From: Bacteroidota bacterium | GTDB lineage: Bacteria > Bacteroidota > Bacteroidia > Chitinophagales > LD1 | Assembly (NCBI GenBank): GCA_018267385.1 | Contig: JAFDYN010000007.1 | Coordinates: forward strand, 434,001-498,000 | Direction of reading: 5' to 3' | Length of the DNA: 64,000 nt | In this document: positions 5,525-64,000 of the stretch, in pieces | Position numbering within the stretch: the first letter of the stretch is position 1 | Layout: the number at the start of each line of letters is the position of its first letter | Notes under the pieces: generated by a model | The model's database searches: none | What the model was told of the DNA's origin: nothing | What the model saw: only the letters and a program-made list of their open reading frames with translations | Program-made: the position numbers and the translations under genes

Positions 5525-6274
5525 ATGATATTACGTGCAGAAAATCTCATAAAGAAATACGGTACCCGTACTGTAGTGAATAATGTCTCAGTCGAAGTAA
5601 AGCAAGGCGAGATAGTAGGGCTCCTGGGTCCGAACGGCGCGGGAAAAACCACTTCATTTTATATGACTGTGGGGCTGATCAAACCTGACAGCGGGCATGT
5701 CTATCTCGACACACTGGATATCACTACGCTGCCCATGTACAAACGCGCTCAGGCGGGTATAGGATATCTGCCTCAGGAGGCATCCGTTTTTCGCAATCTG
5801 AGTGTAGAGGACAATGTATCAGCGGTACTGGAACTGACAGACCTGACCAAAGCGCAGCAGAAGGAAAAGCTGGAGGCTCTATTGGAGGAGTTTGGGCTGA
5901 ATCGGGTGCGCACGGGTATGGGTAATGTGCTCAGCGGTGGCGAGCGTCGGCGTACCGAGATAGCGCGTGCGCTGGCCACTGATCCTAAATTTATATTGCT
6001 GGATGAGCCATTTGCGGGTATAGATCCTATAGCCGTAGAGGATATACAGCGTATCGTAGAGAAGCTCAAGCAAAAAAACATAGGCGTCCTGATCACAGAT
6101 CATAATGTGCAGGAGACACTGTCTATCACAGACCGCGCCTACCTCTTATTTGAGGGCAAAATACTAAAGGCAGGCACTGCTGAGGAGCTGGCTGCAGATG
6201 AGCAAGTGCGCAAGGTCTATCTCGGCCAGAACTTTGTACTGAGGCGCAAGAACCTGAGCGAAGCTAAACTCTGA
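5525..6274 (+). CDS. lptB: LPS export ABC transporter ATPase LptB
   Basis: The 249-residue ATPase has the full ABC set: Walker A GPNGAGKT (35-42), Q-loop Q84 in YLPQEAS, signature LSGGE (136-140), Walker B FILLDE (156-161) and the switch His193 in TDHNV. The length, the [10 protein letters not shown] segment and the LSGGERRR signature are typical of LptB, which powers extraction of lipopolysaccharide from the inner membrane with LptF and LptG. Those partners are not in this window. The stop codon overlaps the next start as TGATG, so it is probably translated together with the GH3-family gene. It follows the outer-membrane TolB-like gene by 61 bases with no terminator in between, suggesting cotranscription. 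Confidence 0.93.
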
Positions 6275-7788
6275 TGCATCCCATCAATGAAATAGCGAAA
6301 TTCTACTTTAGTACCCGTGTCCCGGCCATTGATCATTTTCTGTCACACCCGGCAGAAACCCAGCAAAGAGTATTGACACATCTACTCAGCCGGGCACGTC
6401 ACACCATATATGGGCGGCAATACGGATTTGAGACTATAAAGAGCTATCGCCAGTTTGCTGCACAGGTACCCATTCATGATTATGATGGTCTGAAGCCTTG
6501 GTTTCAGCGCATGATGGATGGCGAGGCAGACGTACTCTGGCCCGGACGTATACAGTGGTTTGCTAAATCCAGCGGTACGACCAATGACGTGAGTAAATTC
6601 ATTCCACTGTCCGGGGAGGGACTACACCGATCACATATCAAGACAGGAAAAGACTTTCTGAGTATTTATTTGAAAAATAACCCGGCCAGCCGATTCTTTA
6701 CCGGCAAGGGTATAGTGATGGGCGGTGCAGGGAATGCTAATGCCGCGCATCCCGATATATTTATCGGCGATGTATCTGCCATCCTTATGAAAAACCTGGA
6801 TACCTGGATACAGTATTTCAGGGAACCAGGCCTGGATGTGGCGCTCATGCCAAAATGGGAAGAAAAATTGGACCGTATCGCTTCGGTCACCATGCAGCAG
6901 AATGTGACCAACATCTCCGGAGTGCCGTCCTGGACCCTCCTGCTTTTGAAGAAGGTTTTAGAAAAAACCGGCAAGACCCTTATCTCTGAGGTATGGCCTC
7001 ATCTGGAGCTATACTCTCACGGTGGAGTTGGGTTTGCCCCATATCGTAAGCAATTTGAAGAAATAATCGGGCGACCGGTATTTTACCAGAATGTATACAA
7101 CGCCTCAGAGGGCTTTTTTGCCTGGCAGGATACGCTGGATAGTGACGATATGCTCCTACATTTAGATAATGGCGTCTTTTATGAGTTTATACCCTTTAAT
7201 GGAAATATGAAAACTCAGGATGCAGTCAATATAGACGATGTGCGCCCGGGTGTCAATTATGCAATGATGATCAGTACTAACTCGGGACTCTGGCGGTATC
7301 TCATAGGAGATACTGTCCAGTTTACCAGTACAGCGCCCCATCGCATCAAGATAACAGGCCGCACCAGGCAGTATATCAATGTGTGGGGCGAAGAGGTCAC
7401 TGTAAACAATACGGATAAAGCTATCTCTGAGAGCTGCGCAGAGATGGATGTCCAGGTGTCTGAATACACCGTAGCTCCGATACATACAGATAGCTATAGC
7501 AGCGGTCGTCATGAGTGGGCTATCGAGTTTAGCAAAGAACCGGCAGATCTGGGGCTTTTCGCGAGGACACTAGACCAGAAGCTGCAATCACTCAACTCGG
7601 ATTACGCCGCCAAAAGATCCGGTGGCCTCGTACTAGACACCCTGGCGGTGGCGCCATTGAATACGGGCAGCTTTTATCAGTGGATGGACCGGCATCATAA
7701 GCTGGGCAGCCAGTGCAAGATACCACGCCTCAGCAATGAGCGCAAGATGATAGATGAACTAAAGGACATCTCCCGGGTTATACGCTGA
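6274..7788 (+). CDS. GH3 auxin-responsive promoter family protein
   Basis: This 504-residue protein belongs to the GH3 family of adenylate-forming acyl-acid amido synthetases. The three nucleotide motifs are visible: SSGTTNDVSKF (motif I, near residue 104), YNASEGFFAW (motif II, near residue 278) and YLIGDTVQF (motif III, near residue 350). In plants GH3 enzymes join hormones to amino acids; the bacterial homologues are widespread in Bacteroidota but their substrates are not settled. Here the ATG shares one base with the lptB stop (TGATG), which argues for coupled translation and a possible envelope or lipid-related job, though that is only context. No signal peptide or membrane segment is seen. 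Confidence 0.88.
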   Translation: MHPINEIAKFYFSTRVPAIDHFLSHPAETQQRVLTHLLSRARHTIYGRQYGFETIKSYRQFAAQVPIHDYDGLKPWFQRMMDGEADVLWPGRIQWFAKSSGTTNDVSKFIPLSGEGLHRSHIKTGKDFLSIYLKNNPASRFFTGKGIVMGGAGNANAAHPDIFIGDVSAILMKNLDTWIQYFREPGLDVALMPKWEEKLDRIASVTMQQNVTNISGVPSWTLLLLKKVLEKTGKTLISEVWPHLELYSHGGVGFAPYRKQFEEIIGRPVFYQNVYNASEGFFAWQDTLDSDDMLLHLDNGVFYEFIPFNGNMKTQDAVNIDDVRPGVNYAMMISTNSGLWRYLIGDTVQFTSTAPHRIKITGRTRQYINVWGEEVTVNNTDKAISESCAEMDVQVSEYTVAPIHTDSYSSGRHEWAIEFSKEPADLGLFARTLDQKLQSLNSDYAAKRSGGLVLDTLAVAPLNTGSFYQWMDRHHKLGSQCKIPRLSNERKMIDELKDISRVIR

Positions 7789-7844
7789 GCCCTGTTGAAA
7801 CTAATGACTTGCATATTTTGAATGATGGGATTAAATTGGGGATT

Positions 7845-10124
7845 ATGAGCGGCATCGAGCTAGACAATTCTGCGGATATCGGCACCAGATATGATGCGGA
7901 TATCCGCTGCATGGTAGATATCGCACCCTACCCGGCACTCATTCATCACAACGGCACGATCAAATACGCTAACAATCTCGCAAAGTCGCTATTGAAAGAG
8001 GAGGGGACAGACCTGACTGGTCAAAACCTGTTTGACTATATCTATGCCGACGATATACAGGCTGTGCTGGATGCTGCACAGAAGTACAATAACTCCGATG
8101 ACAGCAATATCCTGCACGTACGGGTGATAGATACAGCCGGTACTGTGCTGAAGGTACAAGGGAAAAGTATATCTATACAGTACGGAGGGCAGTTATGCCG
8201 CTATATACACGTATATAATTTTGACCGTGCAGAGCAGGCACTCGGCCAGATGCATGAGAAAGAGGAGATACTCACCAAGATACTGGAGATCCTGCCTGAT
8301 AGCCTGCTGGTGACAGACAGTACCAATCGCAAAATACTCTATAGCAATAAGTCTATGGTGCGAAATCTCGGATATGAGGCGGAAGATTTTACAGACGAAT
8401 ATGTTTTTATAGAAAGCAAGATACACCCGGAGGATCTACACAAGATCGTAGCATTTAGAGAAGAATTGACTGCCGCTACCGGAGACGGGACATTCCGCTC
8501 GGTGGAATATAGAGTCAGGGACAAAACCGGAAACTGGCGATGGATGATGAGCCGTAGCATCAGCACCACCGGCGTCAAATTAGGATCCGGCAATGTAAAC
8601 TATAGCATCGTGCAGGATATCACGGCGCGCAAAGAAAAGGAACAAGAATTACTACGCAATCAGACCTTTCAGCAAAAGGTAAATCATACATCCCCTGTCC
8701 TGATCAGCATATTTGATCTGGAAAAGATGTCTTCCATATATCAGAGTAAGGATATGGCAGAGTGGTTCAGGTACACACCTGATACATTTCCTGCCAGATC
8801 CTTTGATGTGATTCATCCCGACTACCAGCAGGACGCTATGGATAGTATCCGGCAGGCGGCCCAGCTCGCAGATGGTCATGTACAGACTACTGTTTATCCC
8901 GCAGTGCAGGGCGATGGACACATTAAGTTCCTCCTGACGCGTACGGCAGTATTTCAGAGAGATGATGCCGGCCGGGCCACTCAGGTACTGATGGTACATA
9001 GTGATATTACCGATCTGAAGGAAATAGAATCCCGGCTGGATCGCAGCGAAGAGACGCGCAAAGCTATTCTGCATACCATACCGGATATGGTGGTCATCAC
9101 TGATATGGATGGTGAGATTTTTGATTTCTACCCCAATGAACTTTTCCGAGATGTTCTCAGCTCGTTCAATTTTATAGGAAAAAAGATAGCGCAGCTATTG
9201 ACCCCGGAGAATACGAAAGCTGTGCTGGATGCAGTAGCGGGCGTACTCCGTGACAATAGGCTGCACACCATAGACCTGGCTCACAGCGGGCGGGAGACAA
9301 CTTACTATATGGAGCTGCGTATCAGTCCATTCATAGATGACAAAGTGGTGATCGTAGCGCGCGATATAGCTGAGCAGAAAGAGCATCAGGATAAAATAGA
9401 TCACTACAATAAGGAGCTGTTTGCTAAAAATCAGGAGCTGGAGCGCTATATCACATCAAACTCAGAGCTGGAAAAATTTGCCTACATCGCCTCGCATGAC
9501 CTCCGGGAGCCTCTCCGCAGCCTTACCGGATTTGCACAGCTGCTGCAAAAGCGCAATGAAGGGAAACTGACAAGGGAATCAGAAGAGTTTATAGAAAACA
9601 TAATCAACGGAGCCCACCGGATGAATACCCTGGTGAGCGGTCTGCTGGAGTACTCCCGTATCACCAGCGCGGGCAAACCTTTTGCCAACGTGCAGATACC
9701 TGACCTGATCCGTAAGGTAAAGTCGGACCTCAAGATCTCTATAGAGGAGAACAAGGCTGAGGTTATACTTTTTGACCTGCCCAATCTCTACTGCGATGAG
9801 CTACAGATGCGCCAGCTCTTCCAGAATCTGATCAGCAATGCTATTAAATTCCGCTCTGAGGCATCTCCTATCGTCAAAATATCTGCAGAGCAGCAGGAGC
9901 GCCACTGGCTATTTAAGGTGGAAGACAATGGGATAGGCCTGGATCCACGCTACAAGGAGCAGGTATTCCAGATATTCACCCGGCTACACTCTCAGGACAA
10001 ATACCAAGGCTCCGGCATAGGCCTGTCGGTATGCAAGAAGATCATAGAGCGGCACGGGGGCCGCATCTGGCTGGAGTCTACGCCAGGCCATGGTGCTACA
10101 ATATTCTTTACCGTAGCAGTTTAG
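7845..10124 (+). CDS. Multi-PAS sensor histidine kinase
   Basis: The protein is 759 residues from the ATG at 7845; a TTG at 7809 would add 12 residues with no better support. It contains four successive PAS-type sensing modules (roughly residues 20-120, 140-260, 270-390 and 400-520; the second carries a clear PAC end, WRWMMSRSI). A short coiled coil (KELFAKNQELERYITSN) leads into the HisKA helix with the phosphoaccepting His551 in SHDLREPL. The HATPase domain has an N box (NLISNAIKF), G1 (VEDNGIGLD), F box (VFQIFTRLH) and G2 (GSGIGLSV). No membrane segment is evident, so it is probably a soluble kinase sensing an internal signal. No response regulator lies nearby; an orphan kinase is likely. 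Confidence 0.9.
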   Translation: MSGIELDNSADIGTRYDADIRCMVDIAPYPALIHHNGTIKYANNLAKSLLKEEGTDLTGQNLFDYIYADDIQAVLDAAQKYNNSDDSNILHVRVIDTAGTVLKVQGKSISIQYGGQLCRYIHVYNFDRAEQALGQMHEKEEILTKILEILPDSLLVTDSTNRKILYSNKSMVRNLGYEAEDFTDEYVFIESKIHPEDLHKIVAFREELTAATGDGTFRSVEYRVRDKTGNWRWMMSRSISTTGVKLGSGNVNYSIVQDITARKEKEQELLRNQTFQQKVNHTSPVLISIFDLEKMSSIYQSKDMAEWFRYTPDTFPARSFDVIHPDYQQDAMDSIRQAAQLADGHVQTTVYPAVQGDGHIKFLLTRTAVFQRDDAGRATQVLMVHSDITDLKEIESRLDRSEETRKAILHTIPDMVVITDMDGEIFDFYPNELFRDVLSSFNFIGKKIAQLLTPENTKAVLDAVAGVLRDNRLHTIDLAHSGRETTYYMELRISPFIDDKVVIVARDIAEQKEHQDKIDHYNKELFAKNQELERYITSNSELEKFAYIASHDLREPLRSLTGFAQLLQKRNEGKLTRESEEFIENIINGAHRMNTLVSGLLEYSRITSAGKPFANVQIPDLIRKVKSDLKISIEENKAEVILFDLPNLYCDELQMRQLFQNLISNAIKFRSEASPIVKISAEQQERHWLFKVEDNGIGLDPRYKEQVFQIFTRLHSQDKYQGSGIGLSVCKKIIERHGGRIWLESTPGHGATIFFTVAV

Positions 10125-11903: not shown

Positions 11904-13622
11904 ATGCAGTTTCATCGCAATATTGTACTTGAGTCTAGGCATGGCAGGCCATTTCTGGCCGATGTCTGCTGGCAGCCGGACGGCCAGCCAAAGCCTATAT
12001 TGATATGGGTGCACGGGTTCATGGGCTTCAAAGACTGGGGGCCGTACAATCTGATGGCGGAGTATTTTGCAGCCGCAGGCTTCGTATTTGTCAAGTTTAA
12101 TATGAGTCACAATGGTACTACAATAGATCAGCCACTAGATTTTGCCGATCCGGAGGCTTTTGGCCATAATAATTTTGAAAAAGAGCTGGATGACCTCGGC
12201 ACCGTGATAGATTGGACGGTTTCAGACGCCTTCGCTGTAGAAGCGAGCGATTGTAATAAAAAGCAGATATATCTGATAGGCCATAGCCGGGGCGGAGGTA
12301 TAGTGACCCTGAAGGCTGGTGAAGATGCAAGGGTAAAAAAGATCGCCACCTGGGCCGCGGTCAATGAGTTTGGCAAGTTTTGGAAATCTGACCAGATGGA
12401 CCAGATCAAAAAGGACGGAGTGATATATGTGACCAACGGGCGCACTAAACAGCAGCTCCCCGTCTACTGGCAGATGTATGAGAATTATTTTGCCAATCCG
12501 CAGCGTCTATACATACCGGATGTGGTAGCGAGACTAAGCATTCCTATGCTCATAGTACATGGCGACCTGGACGAGGCTGTGCCGCCCTCATCAGCGGCAG
12601 AGCTGAAAAAATGGAAACCGGATGCCGAGCTGATGCTGGTGCCCGGTGGCAACCATGTCTTTGGCGGCAAACATCCCTGGGATGCAGATACCCTCCCTAC
12701 AGATCTCAAAAACGTAATAGACAGCACCATAGAATTTTTTCAAGAAACAGATACAGTGAATACAGTAATCAAAATAGGCGGCGTGCCTGAGCATTTTAAC
12801 CTTCCCATCATCATGGCCATAGAGGGGGGAGAGTTTGCAGCGCATGGCATAGATCTGCAGTGGACATATTACCCTGGTGGTACCGGCGCTATGACGCGCG
12901 CACTGGCAGAGGGAGAGATAGACCTGGCTATACTGCTCACAGAAGGCTTTGTATCTGCAGTGAATAACGGCCTGCAGGCAAAGATCGTGAAGGTCTATAT
13001 AGAGTCTCCTCTGGTATGGGGTATCTATACCGGGGCCGGCTCGCCTACGGTATCTCTCTATGACAGCACGCCTAAGAAATACGCTATTTCACGGCTGGGG
13101 TCCGGCTCTCACCTGATGGCCATGATACATGCCGAGCAGCGCGGGGAGAAGCTGACCAAAGACGACTTTTCGATCATAGACAGCCTGGAGGGTGCCATCG
13201 AGTCGCTTACTAAGAATGAAACGCAGATTTTCTACTGGGAGAAATTTATGACCAAAAGATACGTAGATAGTGGTGAGCTACGCCTGATCGGGGAGTTCTC
13301 TGCCCCTTGGTCCAGCTTCCTCATTACAGCCTCAGACAAGGCTATGTCAGAAAATAAGCAGGCGATACATATCGCTATGGAGGTCATCAATGATGCCAGC
13401 ACACGCTTCAAGGCGGACAAGACGGCACCGGCAGAACTCAAAAAACGCTTTGCGCTCAATACAAAAGATGTAGCTAAATGGCTCGGCGCTACAGTGTGGA
13501 ATACTGACTTTACCATACGCAAAAAGGGACTAGACAATGCCATAGAGGCGCTGAATAAGATCCGGCCTACTCCTGTGCATATTGATATGGAGGTGCTCTG
13601 TGAGAATATGAAATTGAAGTAA
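11904..13622 (+). CDS. Fusion of alpha/beta hydrolase and Ca3427-like periplasmic-binding-protein fold
   Basis: One uninterrupted 572-residue frame holds two normally separate proteins. Residues 1-280 are an alpha/beta hydrolase: WVHGFMG oxyanion region (35-41), nucleophile S128 in GHSRGG, likely acid D223 in HGDLDEAVPP and H251 in GGNHVFGG. Residues from about 287 to 572 match a substrate-binding protein of the type 2 periplasmic fold (GGVPEHFNLPI, then GEIDLAILLTEG and a SRLGSGSH segment), close to the Ca3427-like group. There is no stop or ATG at the junction, only an in-frame GTG at Val285 preceding TVIKIGG. No signal peptide is seen, so both halves should be cytoplasmic. The binding domain may sense or deliver the hydrolase substrate; this is inference. 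Confidence 0.8.
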   Translation: MQFHRNIVLESRHGRPFLADVCWQPDGQPKPILIWVHGFMGFKDWGPYNLMAEYFAAAGFVFVKFNMSHNGTTIDQPLDFADPEAFGHNNFEKELDDLGTVIDWTVSDAFAVEASDCNKKQIYLIGHSRGGGIVTLKAGEDARVKKIATWAAVNEFGKFWKSDQMDQIKKDGVIYVTNGRTKQQLPVYWQMYENYFANPQRLYIPDVVARLSIPMLIVHGDLDEAVPPSSAAELKKWKPDAELMLVPGGNHVFGGKHPWDADTLPTDLKNVIDSTIEFFQETDTVNTVIKIGGVPEHFNLPIIMAIEGGEFAAHGIDLQWTYYPGGTGAMTRALAEGEIDLAILLTEGFVSAVNNGLQAKIVKVYIESPLVWGIYTGAGSPTVSLYDSTPKKYAISRLGSGSHLMAMIHAEQRGEKLTKDDFSIIDSLEGAIESLTKNETQIFYWEKFMTKRYVDSGELRLIGEFSAPWSSFLITASDKAMSENKQAIHIAMEVINDASTRFKADKTAPAELKKRFALNTKDVAKWLGATVWNTDFTIRKKGLDNAIEALNKIRPTPVHIDMEVLCENMKLK

Positions 13623-37266: not shown

Positions 37267-37869
37267 ATGAAAACCATCCTTTCTGCTCTACTGCTGATCT
37301 GCATAACCTCCGATACTTTCGCTCAGGCTTTCCCTTCCGAGAAAGACGTTTATGACTTTATGCAGATGGTCGTAAAGGGTCAAAAGCTCACTAAAGAATG
37401 GTATCTGGATTCCGAAGCCCCATTGTATTGCAGACCGGGCAGTGACGGCTCATATCTATACACATTAGACTCAGCGCTGATACCATTAAGAGAAGCCGAT
37501 AAGAAGTTTCGTGACACATGTATGGTACAGATCAATGGCTTCTGTCATGATTTCCCTCTGGAGAGATTTTCCATAAAAATAGGACATGACATCCCGTCCT
37601 GCCTCGGTAAAGGCGACATAGCATATATGTTGGCACAACGGGAACATTCCGCTGCATTCAGATGGGATCAGAAAAGGCTTGGGTTTAATAAAAAGCCAAC
37701 CTATAACTATTACTACATTTCAGTGCCGCTATTCTCCGTAGATAAAACAAAAGCCATCCTGATGATAGAAGAATTGTGTCCGGGGCTTTGCGGGCAAGGC
37801 CACACACTCCTATATACCTTGAATAATGGAAAATGGACAGCAGAATCCAGCTCCAGTTGGAATCATTAA
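37267..37869 (+). CDS. Hypothetical secreted protein
   Basis: A 200-residue protein with a signal peptide (MKTILSALLLICITSDTFAQ). The mature part has several Cys (CRPGSDG, CMVQINGFCHD, CLGKGD, CPGLCGQGHTLLY) that could form disulfides. I do not recognise the family. It starts 12 bases after purD, so may share its transcript. Confidence 0.65.
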   Translation: MKTILSALLLICITSDTFAQAFPSEKDVYDFMQMVVKGQKLTKEWYLDSEAPLYCRPGSDGSYLYTLDSALIPLREADKKFRDTCMVQINGFCHDFPLERFSIKIGHDIPSCLGKGDIAYMLAQREHSAAFRWDQKRLGFNKKPTYNYYYISVPLFSVDKTKAILMIEELCPGLCGQGHTLLYTLNNGKWTAESSSSWNH

Positions 37870-43411: not shown

Positions 43412-43419
43412 TACCTTTG
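43412..43419 (+). promoter_or_regulatory. Predicted -7 element of the desaturase gene
   Basis: TACCTTTG fits TAnnTTTG exactly and lies 27 bases before the ATG at 43447. It shows that the desaturase has its own promoter beyond the Argonaute/SIR2 unit. No clear -33 TTG at 19-21 bases. Confidence 0.5.
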
Positions 43420-43446
43420 CTGCTTCAGCAAACTGCAATAGTTTTC

Positions 43447-44445
43447 ATGCAAACAACGAGTTTTCACAAGTCTCAGATAGATCAGCCGCATCCGCAGCGT
43501 ACCAAGGAGATCCTGCGTGCGCACCCGGAGGTACGTACCCTCATAGGCCGCAACCCGTGGACGGCGGCGATCATGCTTTTCATCCTCTCGCTGCAAGTGG
43601 GTATAGCCTATGTGATGGGCCGTGTGCTGCCGGCAGAGTACTGGTGGGTGGCGCCGATAGCGGCGTGGTGCATAGGGGCCTTTGCTAACCATACGATGTA
43701 CGTGATCATCCATGAGGCGACGCATAACCTGGTCTTTATGAGCCGCACGGCTAACCGCTGGGTGGCGATGATGGCGGACCTGCCTAACCTCGTGCCGGGG
43801 TCTATGGGCTTTGTGGTGTTTCACCTGAAGCACCATGCGCATCAGGGCGACTACGACCAGGATGCCGATATGGCTAACGACTGGGAGGCCCGCCTGATAG
43901 GCAATACGGCGATAGGCAAGGCACTGTGGCTGCTGTTCTTCCCTGTGTTTCAGGTGACACGCCCTGCGCGACTGAAGTCTATCAATATGTGGAGCAAGTG
44001 GACCTGGATCAACCTGGGCATGGCGATCATGTTTGACGTGGCCATCACCTACTTCTGCGGCTGGGTGGGCCTGCTGTACCTGGTGTGTTCTTTCTTCTTC
44101 TCCATAGGCCTGCACCCTGTAGGCGGCAGGTGGATACAGGAGCACTATACCTATGAGGGTGGCCAGGAGACCTTCAGCTACTATGGCCCTATCAATATCA
44201 TAGCGCTGAATGTGGGCTATCACAATGAGCACCATGACTTCCCGTCTATCCCGTGGAATAACCTGCCTAAGCTGCGCGCCATGGCACCGGAGTACTATGA
44301 CAACCTGAAGTACCACACCTCGTGGGCTGCTATCTGGTGGCAGTTTATCACCGACTCACGCTTCTCGCTCTTCTCGCGCGTGGAGCGTGTGGGTGAGGGT
44401 AAGGTGGCTATGAAGGCGAAGAAGGAAACGGCTAAGGCGGCGTAA
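43447..44445 (+). CDS. Sphingolipid delta-4 desaturase-like fatty-acyl desaturase
   Basis: A 332-residue membrane enzyme closely resembling eukaryotic DEGS1/DES1, which puts the 4,5 double bond into dihydroceramide. The short lipid-DES N-domain is present (DQPHPQRTKEILRAHPEVR), then the histidine boxes HEATHN (89-94), HLKHH (126-130) and HNEHH (259-263), and the DES ending SYYGPINI, IPWNNLP, APEYYDNL. The box positions agree with the animal enzyme to within a few residues. The length also matches (about 323 in animals). Four or so hydrophobic segments fit an inner-membrane di-iron enzyme. Bacteroidota make sphingolipids, so a ceramide-type substrate is plausible but not proven. A TTG at 43417 would add ten residues; the -7 element argues for 43447. 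Confidence 0.88.
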   Translation: MQTTSFHKSQIDQPHPQRTKEILRAHPEVRTLIGRNPWTAAIMLFILSLQVGIAYVMGRVLPAEYWWVAPIAAWCIGAFANHTMYVIIHEATHNLVFMSRTANRWVAMMADLPNLVPGSMGFVVFHLKHHAHQGDYDQDADMANDWEARLIGNTAIGKALWLLFFPVFQVTRPARLKSINMWSKWTWINLGMAIMFDVAITYFCGWVGLLYLVCSFFFSIGLHPVGGRWIQEHYTYEGGQETFSYYGPINIIALNVGYHNEHHDFPSIPWNNLPKLRAMAPEYYDNLKYHTSWAAIWWQFITDSRFSLFSRVERVGEGKVAMKAKKETAKAA

Positions 44446-44530
44446 TTGTTTGGCGCGATAGTTAGTAGGGCGATGCCCTACTCTGGTGGCTTGGCGCCCC
44501 TTTGGGGCTGGAAGTAGCGACCCCTCTAAA

Positions 44531-44552
44531 TCTCCCCTAAAGGGGAGACTTT
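44531..44552. terminator. Hairpin between convergent genes, possible REP-like copy
   Basis: TCTCCCC (44531-44537) pairs with GGGGAGA (44542-44548) around TAAA and is followed by CTTT. It lies between the convergent desaturase and the unknown helical protein gene. The palindrome has the look of a dispersed repeat as well as a terminator. Confidence 0.5.
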
Positions 44553-44585
44553 AACAGCATCCATGAAGGTAAATCCTATTCTTAT

Positions 44586-56967: not shown

Positions 56968-57594
56968 ATGAAATATATACTCCTCAGTGCCTGCAGCCTG
57001 CTCTTGCTGATCAGTAGCTGTAGCAAAAGTCCCTCTCCGGCTCAGACACGCGTACGGACCAATACCTTCACCGTAAACTGGTTTCGGGATAGTACGACAC
57101 CAAACCCTACAGCTTTTATAGACTTATATAACGGAAAGGCGTATACTATGAGCCAGGCGGTGGCTAAGGCTGACAGTGTAGACCTATTCTGCTATGACCA
57201 TTCTGCACTGACAGTATCCGGCCAGGACATATCACTGATCAATATGGCATTCTTTGGTGCCGGCACCTATGACCCTCAGGCGGTGCAGCTCTTTCAGGAT
57301 GTAGTCGAAGTACTGCCACTATCAAACTACAACACATCCACAATAGATGTAGTCAGCATTACACCTGCAGACTATACCAACATTACCTACAACGCTGATA
57401 TCAGTAGCATCTTCTCCAGCAAGGCGCTGAACGGTGGCCAGACGGATATCAGCATCGCAGCGTCAGACCTCAATACTACTAAGTACTATCAGTTCAAATG
57501 CTCCAAGAATGGCAAGCGCGGCTTCCTGCATGTCATCTCTGCCAATTACTCTCCTGGAGGTACGATGACCATAGAGGAGAAAGTAGAAGAGTAA
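56968..57594 (+). CDS. Lipoprotein of unknown function
   Basis: A 208-residue protein with a lipobox (LLISSC, acylated at Cys18). The mature part is rich in beta strands and Asn/Thr/Ser. I do not recognise the family. It lies after the atpA terminator and before the CHU_C protein gene, with 98 bases between. Confidence 0.65.
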   Translation: MKYILLSACSLLLLISSCSKSPSPAQTRVRTNTFTVNWFRDSTTPNPTAFIDLYNGKAYTMSQAVAKADSVDLFCYDHSALTVSGQDISLINMAFFGAGTYDPQAVQLFQDVVEVLPLSNYNTSTIDVVSITPADYTNITYNADISSIFSSKALNGGQTDISIAASDLNTTKYYQFKCSKNGKRGFLHVISANYSPGGTMTIEEKVEE

Positions 57595-61806: not shown

Positions 61807-64000
61807 TTAGTGTATGATGGACACCTTGCCCGAGCGGATATTACCGGCCTGGTCTCTGGCTGTATAAGTGTAGATGCCTGCAGCAAATGTGCTACCTGAC
61901 AGGGTCAGATCTCTGCTGGTAGTAGTTTCCATTACCTTTTTGCCTGTCACATCCATCAGCTCAAAGCTGACCTGGCCCGTAGCGCCTGTGAAGTGTATGA
62001 TAGACGACTCCTGCACCGGATTTGGCATGATGCTGACCTGCATGGCACCATCGCGGCTCGGTGTATGTATACCTGTCAGATCTGAGCGGGTATTGACAGT
62101 AGTATTGGTCACTACGGCAGAGTTGTAGTCAAAATAGATGTAAGCTGTATTCTTTACTTCGGTGCCTAGCGGCAGGTTTGGCCTGGTATGCACAGTGTAG
62201 TTTACAAATCCTTTGCTATTTGGCTCATCATGTACGCTATCCGGCAGATTGATATTCTCAAACCGGAAAGTGAGCAGACCGTTACCGGATAGAGAGAACT
62301 TATAAGGATGACTGGAAGCACCGGGCACTACAGATGCCGGATCTACGTATGGAGATAGTGTGTCCTGTACTACTACGAGGTAGGCAGGTGCATTGCCGTC
62401 ATTCTGGAAGCGTACAGTGTAGTGCAGTATATTATCTCCCTCTGCCAGAGGGCCTGCAGGGTAGACTGCCTTGTCATTAGGATCATGGGAGCCTACTACC
62501 TCATCATAGATGCTTTCGGTATTGTCAGACGTGTTGCAGTCGCCGGCTGTGGGCGCTATCTGTGCCGTGCAGGCCAGGTACGATCCGAGCGTGAGGGTAT
62601 TAGGCACGTTGAAGGTCATTTCTACACGCTGCCAGTTAGCGCCTGGGCTCAGGTTGCCTACATTCCAGGTCACAGTATGGGTCGCGTTGTCATAGCTGGT
62701 ATAAGGAGGATTGGACGATACGAGTGTCAGATTAGGGTCATGCACGAAGCTCACTACAGTACCAGGTGCGCTGGCCTGTCCGGTATTGTAGTAGTACACC
62801 CAGTAGTCCTTGGTAGAGCCGGGTATAGAGGTGCCGCAGCCTGCATGTACGCCCAGGTTGTAAGCCTGCGCACCGGGATCTATCGCAAAATCATTGCCTG
62901 ACGAGGTCTGTCCTGATGATGCCAGAGATGCGGTGTGGCTCGAAGTACAGCTGCTGGTAGCGCAGCCAGAGTCGTTTGGCATACGGAGTGTGATAGTATA
63001 TGTACCTGGCAGTACTATCGCGTCATAGAATCCGCTGGTATCAGTACTCGCATACGAAACGCTGCCATTGCCAGCAGTGATCATAGCATAGGCGCTACCG
63101 ACAGATAGCTCACCTGCATCCCTGGTACAGTTGCTATTCGCATCGGTGTAGATGTAGCCGGTGATGTGGTCATAGCAGGATGGGTCGATATTGATGTAGA
63201 CTGTATCGTTATTGGAGTTGTGCTGAGGGATGCATCCATTAGCGTCGGTTACATCCACTACGGCTATCGTGTAGGGCTGCAGGCCTGTGATGGTCTGGCC
63301 CGTGCCCAGTACAATCGGACTGTTTGAAAACATATTGTGCCATACATATGTAAACGGCGCAGTACCTCCGGATCCCGATACGATAGCTGTGGCAGTACCG
63401 GTATACAGAGAGGTATCACATGATGAAGGTGTAGCAGTAGCGCTCACAGAGTATGCTGCCTCACCTCTCAGGGTATAGCTGGCAGTAGCCGTGCAGCCAT
63501 TCTGGTCCGTAGCGGTCACAGTATAGCTGCCTGCAGCCAGGTTGCTATGTATAGCAGCCGTACCTGAGCCTGCCGACCATGCATAGGTGTAAGTACCGGA
63601 ACCACTGTATGCATAGGCCTGTATAGTGCCATCTGCCACACCACAAGTAGGGTTGGTCACAGGGGCTATATAGGCACCAATGCCATTGCCGGTGTAGATA
63701 TTATAATATCCCGAACCCGTGCATCCATTGGCATCTGTCACAGTGACACCATATGATCCTGTAGCCAGGCCTGAGGCGATACTATCAGTAGATGCAGAAC
63801 CGCTCCAGTGCCAGGAGTAAGGTGCCTGTCCTGTCCTGATATGTATAGTGATAGTGCCGGTACTGCCTGTGCAGCCAGGATATTGTATCGTAGCGGAGCC
63901 GCCATTGGCGCTGTCTATAAAGAGCGCAGTATAGCCGATGTACTGCGAGGCAGCAGCTGTACAGCCGTTCCCATCTGTAGCGGTCACGGTGTAGAGGGTG
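61807..64000 (-). CDS. T9SS cargo protein with SprB repeats (5' end outside window)
   Basis: The frame runs from the right window edge (no start visible) to the stop at 61807, about 730 residues. The N-terminal part has repeated SprB-type units (TNPTCGVADGTI, GSGTYTYAWSAG, LAAGSYTVTATDQNGCTA), then a Cna-B-like segment (ITGYIYTDANSNCTRDAGE) and a DUF7619-like region (HDPNDKAVYPAG, LHYTVRFQNDGNAPA, NTAYIYFDYNSAVVTN). A type A sorting domain ends it (SIMPNPVQESSI to GKVSIIH). It should be exported by T9SS. The length beyond the window is unknown. Confidence 0.88.
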   Translation of the reverse strand, partial: TLYTVTATDGNGCTAAASQYIGYTALFIDSANGGSATIQYPGCTGSTGTITIHIRTGQAPYSWHWSGSASTDSIASGLATGSYGVTVTDANGCTGSGYYNIYTGNGIGAYIAPVTNPTCGVADGTIQAYAYSGSGTYTYAWSAGSGTAAIHSNLAAGSYTVTATDQNGCTATASYTLRGEAAYSVSATATPSSCDTSLYTGTATAIVSGSGGTAPFTYVWHNMFSNSPIVLGTGQTITGLQPYTIAVVDVTDANGCIPQHNSNNDTVYINIDPSCYDHITGYIYTDANSNCTRDAGELSVGSAYAMITAGNGSVSYASTDTSGFYDAIVLPGTYTITLRMPNDSGCATSSCTSSHTASLASSGQTSSGNDFAIDPGAQAYNLGVHAGCGTSIPGSTKDYWVYYYNTGQASAPGTVVSFVHDPNLTLVSSNPPYTSYDNATHTVTWNVGNLSPGANWQRVEMTFNVPNTLTLGSYLACTAQIAPTAGDCNTSDNTESIYDEVVGSHDPNDKAVYPAGPLAEGDNILHYTVRFQNDGNAPAYLVVVQDTLSPYVDPASVVPGASSHPYKFSLSGNGLLTFRFENINLPDSVHDEPNSKGFVNYTVHTRPNLPLGTEVKNTAYIYFDYNSAVVTNTTVNTRSDLTGIHTPSRDGAMQVSIMPNPVQESSIIHFTGATGQVSFELMDVTGKKVMETTTSRDLTLSGSTFAAGIYTYTARDQAGNIRSGKVSIIH

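Follow-up and report, generated by a model that had tools for sequence, protein, structure and literature searches.

Within the window analysed here, a 64,000-nucleotide stretch of a Bacteroidota genome (positions 434,001 to 498,000 of contig JAFDYN010000007.1, assembly GCA_018267385.1), a single ATG-started open frame of 572 codons occupies positions 11904-13622 of the forward strand and would encode 572 amino acids. Residues 1-283 form an alpha/beta hydrolase, and from codon 285, a GTG, onward the frame encodes, in full, a class II binding-protein fold of the CA3427 type. The presence of two complete domains in one frame rules out a chance ORF. The first-pass annotation had read the frame as a hydrolase with its triad joined to a complete Ca3427-like domain, and both Pfam and matches to solved structures bear this out; its placing of the GTG before the motif TVIKIGG is also correct, apart from one residue (N) that stands between the two. 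The window's own genome contains only one match to the fused protein. The features of the locus are collected in Table 1, in which G001 is the closest relative compared, a genome of the same genus, and T5 and T6 are runs of five and six T.

Table 1. Features of the hydrolase and CA3427-like frame, in window coordinates
Feature	Position	Strand	Basis or remark
Alpha/beta hydrolase part (dienelactone-hydrolase / cinnamoyl-esterase-like)	11904..12755	+	Codons 1-284; Pfam, 7qjn, triad motifs, C-terminus of G001
T6 run (T5 in G001); extra base joining both frames	12735..12740	+	Lone gap in alignment with G001
GTG (fused-frame codon 285), where the separate gene starts in G001, G004 and G005 of the same genus	12756..12758	+	
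TGA, out of frame in the window; hydrolase stop in the T5 form (GTGA overlap)	12757..12759	+	
CA3427-like part: class II periplasmic-binding-protein fold, no signal peptide	12756..13622	+	PF22384, 2x7p, AlphaFold2, Foldseek

The hydrolase half is recognized by Pfam as Abhydrolase_1 (PF00561; residues 31-164, 6.4e-12, 46.1 bits against a cut-off of 25.8). Its best solved relative is 7qjn, an entry named 'Dienelactone hydrolase' (Pfam PF00561/PF01738), with similarity that spans residues 12-281 (phmmer, 3.5e-55). Three motifs, GHSRGG (S128), HGDLDEAVP (D223) and GGNHVFGG (H251), occur in that order, and we take them to be the catalytic triad of an alpha/beta hydrolase. As the NCBIfam matches all fall far below the curated cut-offs, its substrate cannot be named; the enzyme would probably cleave a small ester or amide.

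The second half belongs to the family of CA3427, a Candida albicans protein of solved structure (2x7p/2x7q), by Pfam, sequence and fold search. PBP2_Ca3427_like (PF22384) matches residues 372-464 (3.4e-17, 63.1 bits against a cut-off of 27), and the best solved relative found by phmmer is CA3427 itself (2x7p, 3e-33). An AlphaFold2 model, which covers the binding half only, has a mean pLDDT of 91.9 and a pTM of 0.89, and with this model Foldseek ranks 2x7p first of 1805 matches (E = 1.5e-24). Among the 50 matches listed, the next-best structural neighbours are the class II folds of SsuA and Thi5, at 12-17% identity in the listed rows. Thi5 is a non-exported enzyme with a class II binding-protein fold.

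Pairwise alignment reveals the segments PEHF, SPLxW, RxGSGS, WExF and PWSS as common to CA3427 and the window, and the segments PEHF, GSGSH, WEK and PWS vary little or not at all across an alignment of 18 sequences (the window and 17 loci). Two joint alignments of the fused protein with standalone hydrolases and binding proteins each misaligned one of its halves. The portions of the 2011 structure paper drawn on here (Santini et al. 2011, PMC3073944) describe a polar cluster in CA3427 made up of Glu11, His12, Glu164 and Thr167, state that CA3427 shares no binding-site residue with yeast Thi13, and already report the family in Bacteroidetes. The Glu and His of PEHF and the Glu of WEKF are present in the window and invariant across the 18 sequences; the column of Thr167 holds Met in the window, and the adjoining column is an invariant Thr. 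From the crystal structure the same portions propose a long hydrophobic ligand for CA3427 and leave its function open, and in the limited library that we searched we found no functional work on the family later than that paper. The window's binding protein would likewise hold a hydrophobic ligand, and would do so in the cytoplasm. Judged from the start codon relative to the first strand, it lacks a signal peptide or lipobox of the kind carried by exported substrate-binding proteins of ABC transporters: in the AlphaFold2 model the first strand begins at residue 3 counted from the GTG, and the aligned relatives have their start codons 1-7 residues ahead of that strand (the L122 row is incomplete). 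Because these separate-gene relatives also lack a signal peptide, as does CA3427, the predicted cytoplasmic location is a trait of the family. The window further differs from CA3427 in that its frame runs on from an upstream hydrolase.

The T6 run is the sole cause of the frame staying open. G001, whose contig begins inside the hydrolase gene and gives coverage from window position 12443 on, is identical to the window in 1454 of 1480 alignment columns (98% DNA identity), and the one gap is T6 versus T5. With T5, the hydrolase of G001 stops at the TGA, which overlaps the GTG as GTGA, and two separate genes result. The first-pass annotation had suspected a merger of two overlapping genes, and the comparison agrees: G001 has both genes in overlap, and one extra T merges them. 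The T5 reading of the window would yield a separate 284-residue hydrolase ending in IEFFKKQIQ, whereas the T6 reading gives FFQETDT and leaves only a few residues (ETDTVNTV) as a linker between the domains. Because the hydrolase ends in FFKKQIQ in G001, and FFK recurs in 7 of 9 other aligned hydrolases, the conserved end fits T5 and not T6. We are thus highly confident that a single additional T, in a short run of Ts close to the hydrolase gene's 3' end, created the 572-codon frame and that the adjacent pair ancestrally consisted of two separate genes on the same strand. The frame does not represent an established domain fusion; one base, in one assembly, accounts for the merger.

The same arrangement of separate genes recurs within the family. 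Relatives that all keep two genes were named by the first-pass annotation as the finding that would count against its reading, and a stop codon does lie between the genes in all 14 family relatives that have them adjacent (two of which, G003 and G023, reach the contig end within the binding-protein gene). Counted from the last base of the stop codon up to the start codon, with the upstream start taken where two are listed, the spacing within the genus is -4 nt in G001 and G004, which share the GTGA overlap, +5 nt in G005 and G006, and +1 nt in G002 and G003. In the eight other family relatives it is 12, 25, 34, 115, 71, 89, -1 and -4 nt. Eight of the 14 pairs, including all six of the same genus, therefore lie within -8 to +10 nt, a spacing that Huber et al. 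2023 (PMC10666635), in the part drawn on here, take as predictive of coupling. From this spacing and that study, the second gene of the T5 form would probably be translated by termination-reinitiation.

Searches with the fused protein found no second genome in which a match runs through both halves without a stop, whether among 60 relatives or in samples of the family (30), phylum (247), order (396) and class (395), all of which include the window's genome and overlap one another. Up to five candidates per genome were scored in the phylum sample and up to three in the order and class samples; for the latter two the cut-off was 1e-98, at which a strongly diverged fusion could escape. In one genome (G019) a single match spans both halves, yet it contains two TAA codons. 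The first-pass annotation had proposed counting how often the two domains are fused or adjacent, and the counts do not favour a recurrent fusion: the fusion is seen once, and adjacency occurs in 14 of 29 family relatives and in none of the 246 other genomes of the phylum sample, seven of which have both genes.

Nor do the two genes seek each other's company. Of the 29 family relatives, both genes are present in 17 (adjacent in 14, apart in 3), while 8 have the hydrolase only, 2 the binding protein only and 2 neither; the 17 compare with 16.4 expected under independence. In 30 order mates from outside the family the hydrolase occurs in 20 genomes, the binding protein in 9 and both together in 6, against 6.0 expected, and in those six the genes are never on one contig; in both sets some genomes are incomplete. 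Each gene is often retained without the other. The idea of sensing or substrate channelling, put forward in the first-pass annotation, therefore finds no support, since co-occurrence in the order sample is at chance level and the adjacent pair is separate in every family relative.

The origin of the extra T itself is a closer question, and we think it somewhat more likely than not that it is a real and recent mutation in the window's lineage. The competing explanation, that it is a base-call or assembly error and that the organism has two ordinary separate genes, is a serious one to which we give somewhat less than an even chance: the indel falls within a homopolymer, and none of the 14 relatives with adjacent genes has them joined. 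Against it stands the quality of the surrounding assembly. We screened about 399 kb around the window (in a genome of 4.55 Mb) for frameshifts against about 378 kb of G005, using pieces of at least 60 amino acids, so that shifts near gene ends are missed. None of 238 genes of the window's genome was split, over 253,560 aligned coding bases and 787 homopolymer runs of 5 or more. The reverse comparison finds two genes of G005 that appear divided where the window's genome has one frame, one at the junction, out of frame, and the other through one short upstream piece that is in frame, leaving the junction as the only frame shift found in this screen. Against G001, over 31,457 bases (29,860 of them coding), the junction is again the only coding indel that does not cancel to a multiple of three; the others fall in close groups (37420-37442, 37540-37560, 57549-57553 and 63462-63468), each of which sums to a multiple of three. 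The assembly is not generally indel-prone, and its freedom from other frameshifts in the coding sequence compared is a slight point in favour of a genuine recent mutation.

Should the extra base be genuine, the hydrolase frame would bypass the TGA and enter the binding-protein frame to give a two-domain protein, a change that may be tolerated because it is located in the tail of the gene. Each domain would then most likely keep its own job. A more ambitious reading is that the protein is bifunctional, the binding domain capturing a cytoplasmic ligand that it passes to the hydrolase or senses on its behalf, and several observations lend it some appeal. Both domains look intact; the spacing in the genus suggests coupled translation, and the part of Huber et al. 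2023 (PMC10666635) drawn on here gives 30.4% (E. coli) and 45.2% (H. volcanii) as the share of such closely spaced pairs that are complex subunits. Adjacency in 14 of 29 family relatives is also how a real partnership would look, an order mate outside the family (G050) has its binding-protein gene adjoining a different alpha/beta hydrolase, and three flavobacterial loci place the gene after a FabG-like reductase and an unknown protein. However, the fusion was observed only once, co-occurrence shows no excess in either order or family, no pair is adjacent in the rest of the phylum sample, and adjacency within the family may be general synteny, as the GH3, histidine kinase and polyprenyl synthase genes nearby are retained as well. 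Because those neighbours are also kept in place and co-occurrence is without excess, we weigh the evidence for partnership lightly and regard a bifunctional protein as improbable. Equally improbable in our estimation is its fullest form, in which T6 is real, the fusion works and the CA3427-like protein would be a cytoplasmic acyl-binding partner of the esterase, normally coupled to it through GTGA and locked together with it in the window's species; if true, this would for the first time open to biochemical study the CA3427 family, which is uncharacterised and occurs in fungi such as Candida as well.

It is very improbable that the T run causes slippage in transcription or programmed frameshifting and so yields separate and fused products throughout the genus. 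Many of the relatives compared do have a T run near the hydrolase stop, but run lengths and following codons differ among them, and the run does not reach the 8 or more nucleotides that programmed slippage often involves (according to the part of PMC3711429 drawn on here). The junction also has a normal start codon, and the Ts simply code for the conserved FF.

With a single-base merger of two genes as the preferred reading, the fusion itself carries little weight and serves rather as a warning against inferring function from one fused frame in one assembly. The closely spaced pair in the genus is nonetheless a modest lead to a partner of the CA3427 family, to which the 2011 structure paper could assign no function. 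A common partner of the binding-protein gene was sought across 28 stretches and none is shared by all; its neighbours include efflux genes (G009, G012), a CNNM protein (G013), an FAA hydrolase (G047) and DHDPS (G054), among others.

Some of these neighbourhoods are of interest in their own right. In G050 (L134, 7162-8884, reverse strand) the hydrolase that adjoins the CA3427-like gene is an Abhydrolase_1 protein (3.1e-19) with no match to the window hydrolase at 1e-10. In three of three flavobacterial loci (L120, 3088-6858; L123, 3088-6855; L125, 3120-6855; all forward strand) the CA3427-like gene lies just downstream of a gene for a 695-residue protein (694 in L123), ahead of which is a short-chain family reductase, in L120 identified by NCBIfam as FabG. 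Of the long proteins, the one tested, from L120, matched nothing in Pfam, NCBIfam or PDB. This context of reductase and long protein would fit an acyl-related role of the binding protein and proves nothing. In the order mate G032 (L138, 7981-8865, reverse strand) the binding-protein gene is interrupted, leaving two open frames, and is either a pseudogene or an assembly error.

A scan of the window with Rfam at gathering scores and one with the PADLOC defence families returned no match. Elsewhere in the window, a forward-strand gene at 6274-7785 encodes a protein of the GH3 family in which all three GH3 domains are found (best 1.2e-54); it belongs to a block conserved in the family and adjoins an ABC ATPase (5525-6271) and a PAS histidine kinase (7809-10124). 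The stretch from 37420 to 37560, where groups of small indels relative to G001 cancel to multiples of three inside one ORF, is locally fast-changing. The intergenic segment at about 44450-44555 has short matches at many places in the G001 genome and is probably a dispersed intergenic repeat. Just upstream, at 43417-44445 on the forward strand, lies a gene for a 342-residue protein with a fatty-acid desaturase domain and an N-terminal Lipid_DES domain (Pfam, 2.1e-29 and 1.3e-10); the latter is the domain of sphingolipid Delta4-desaturases, making this protein a relative of eukaryote-type sphingolipid desaturases in a Bacteroidota genome.
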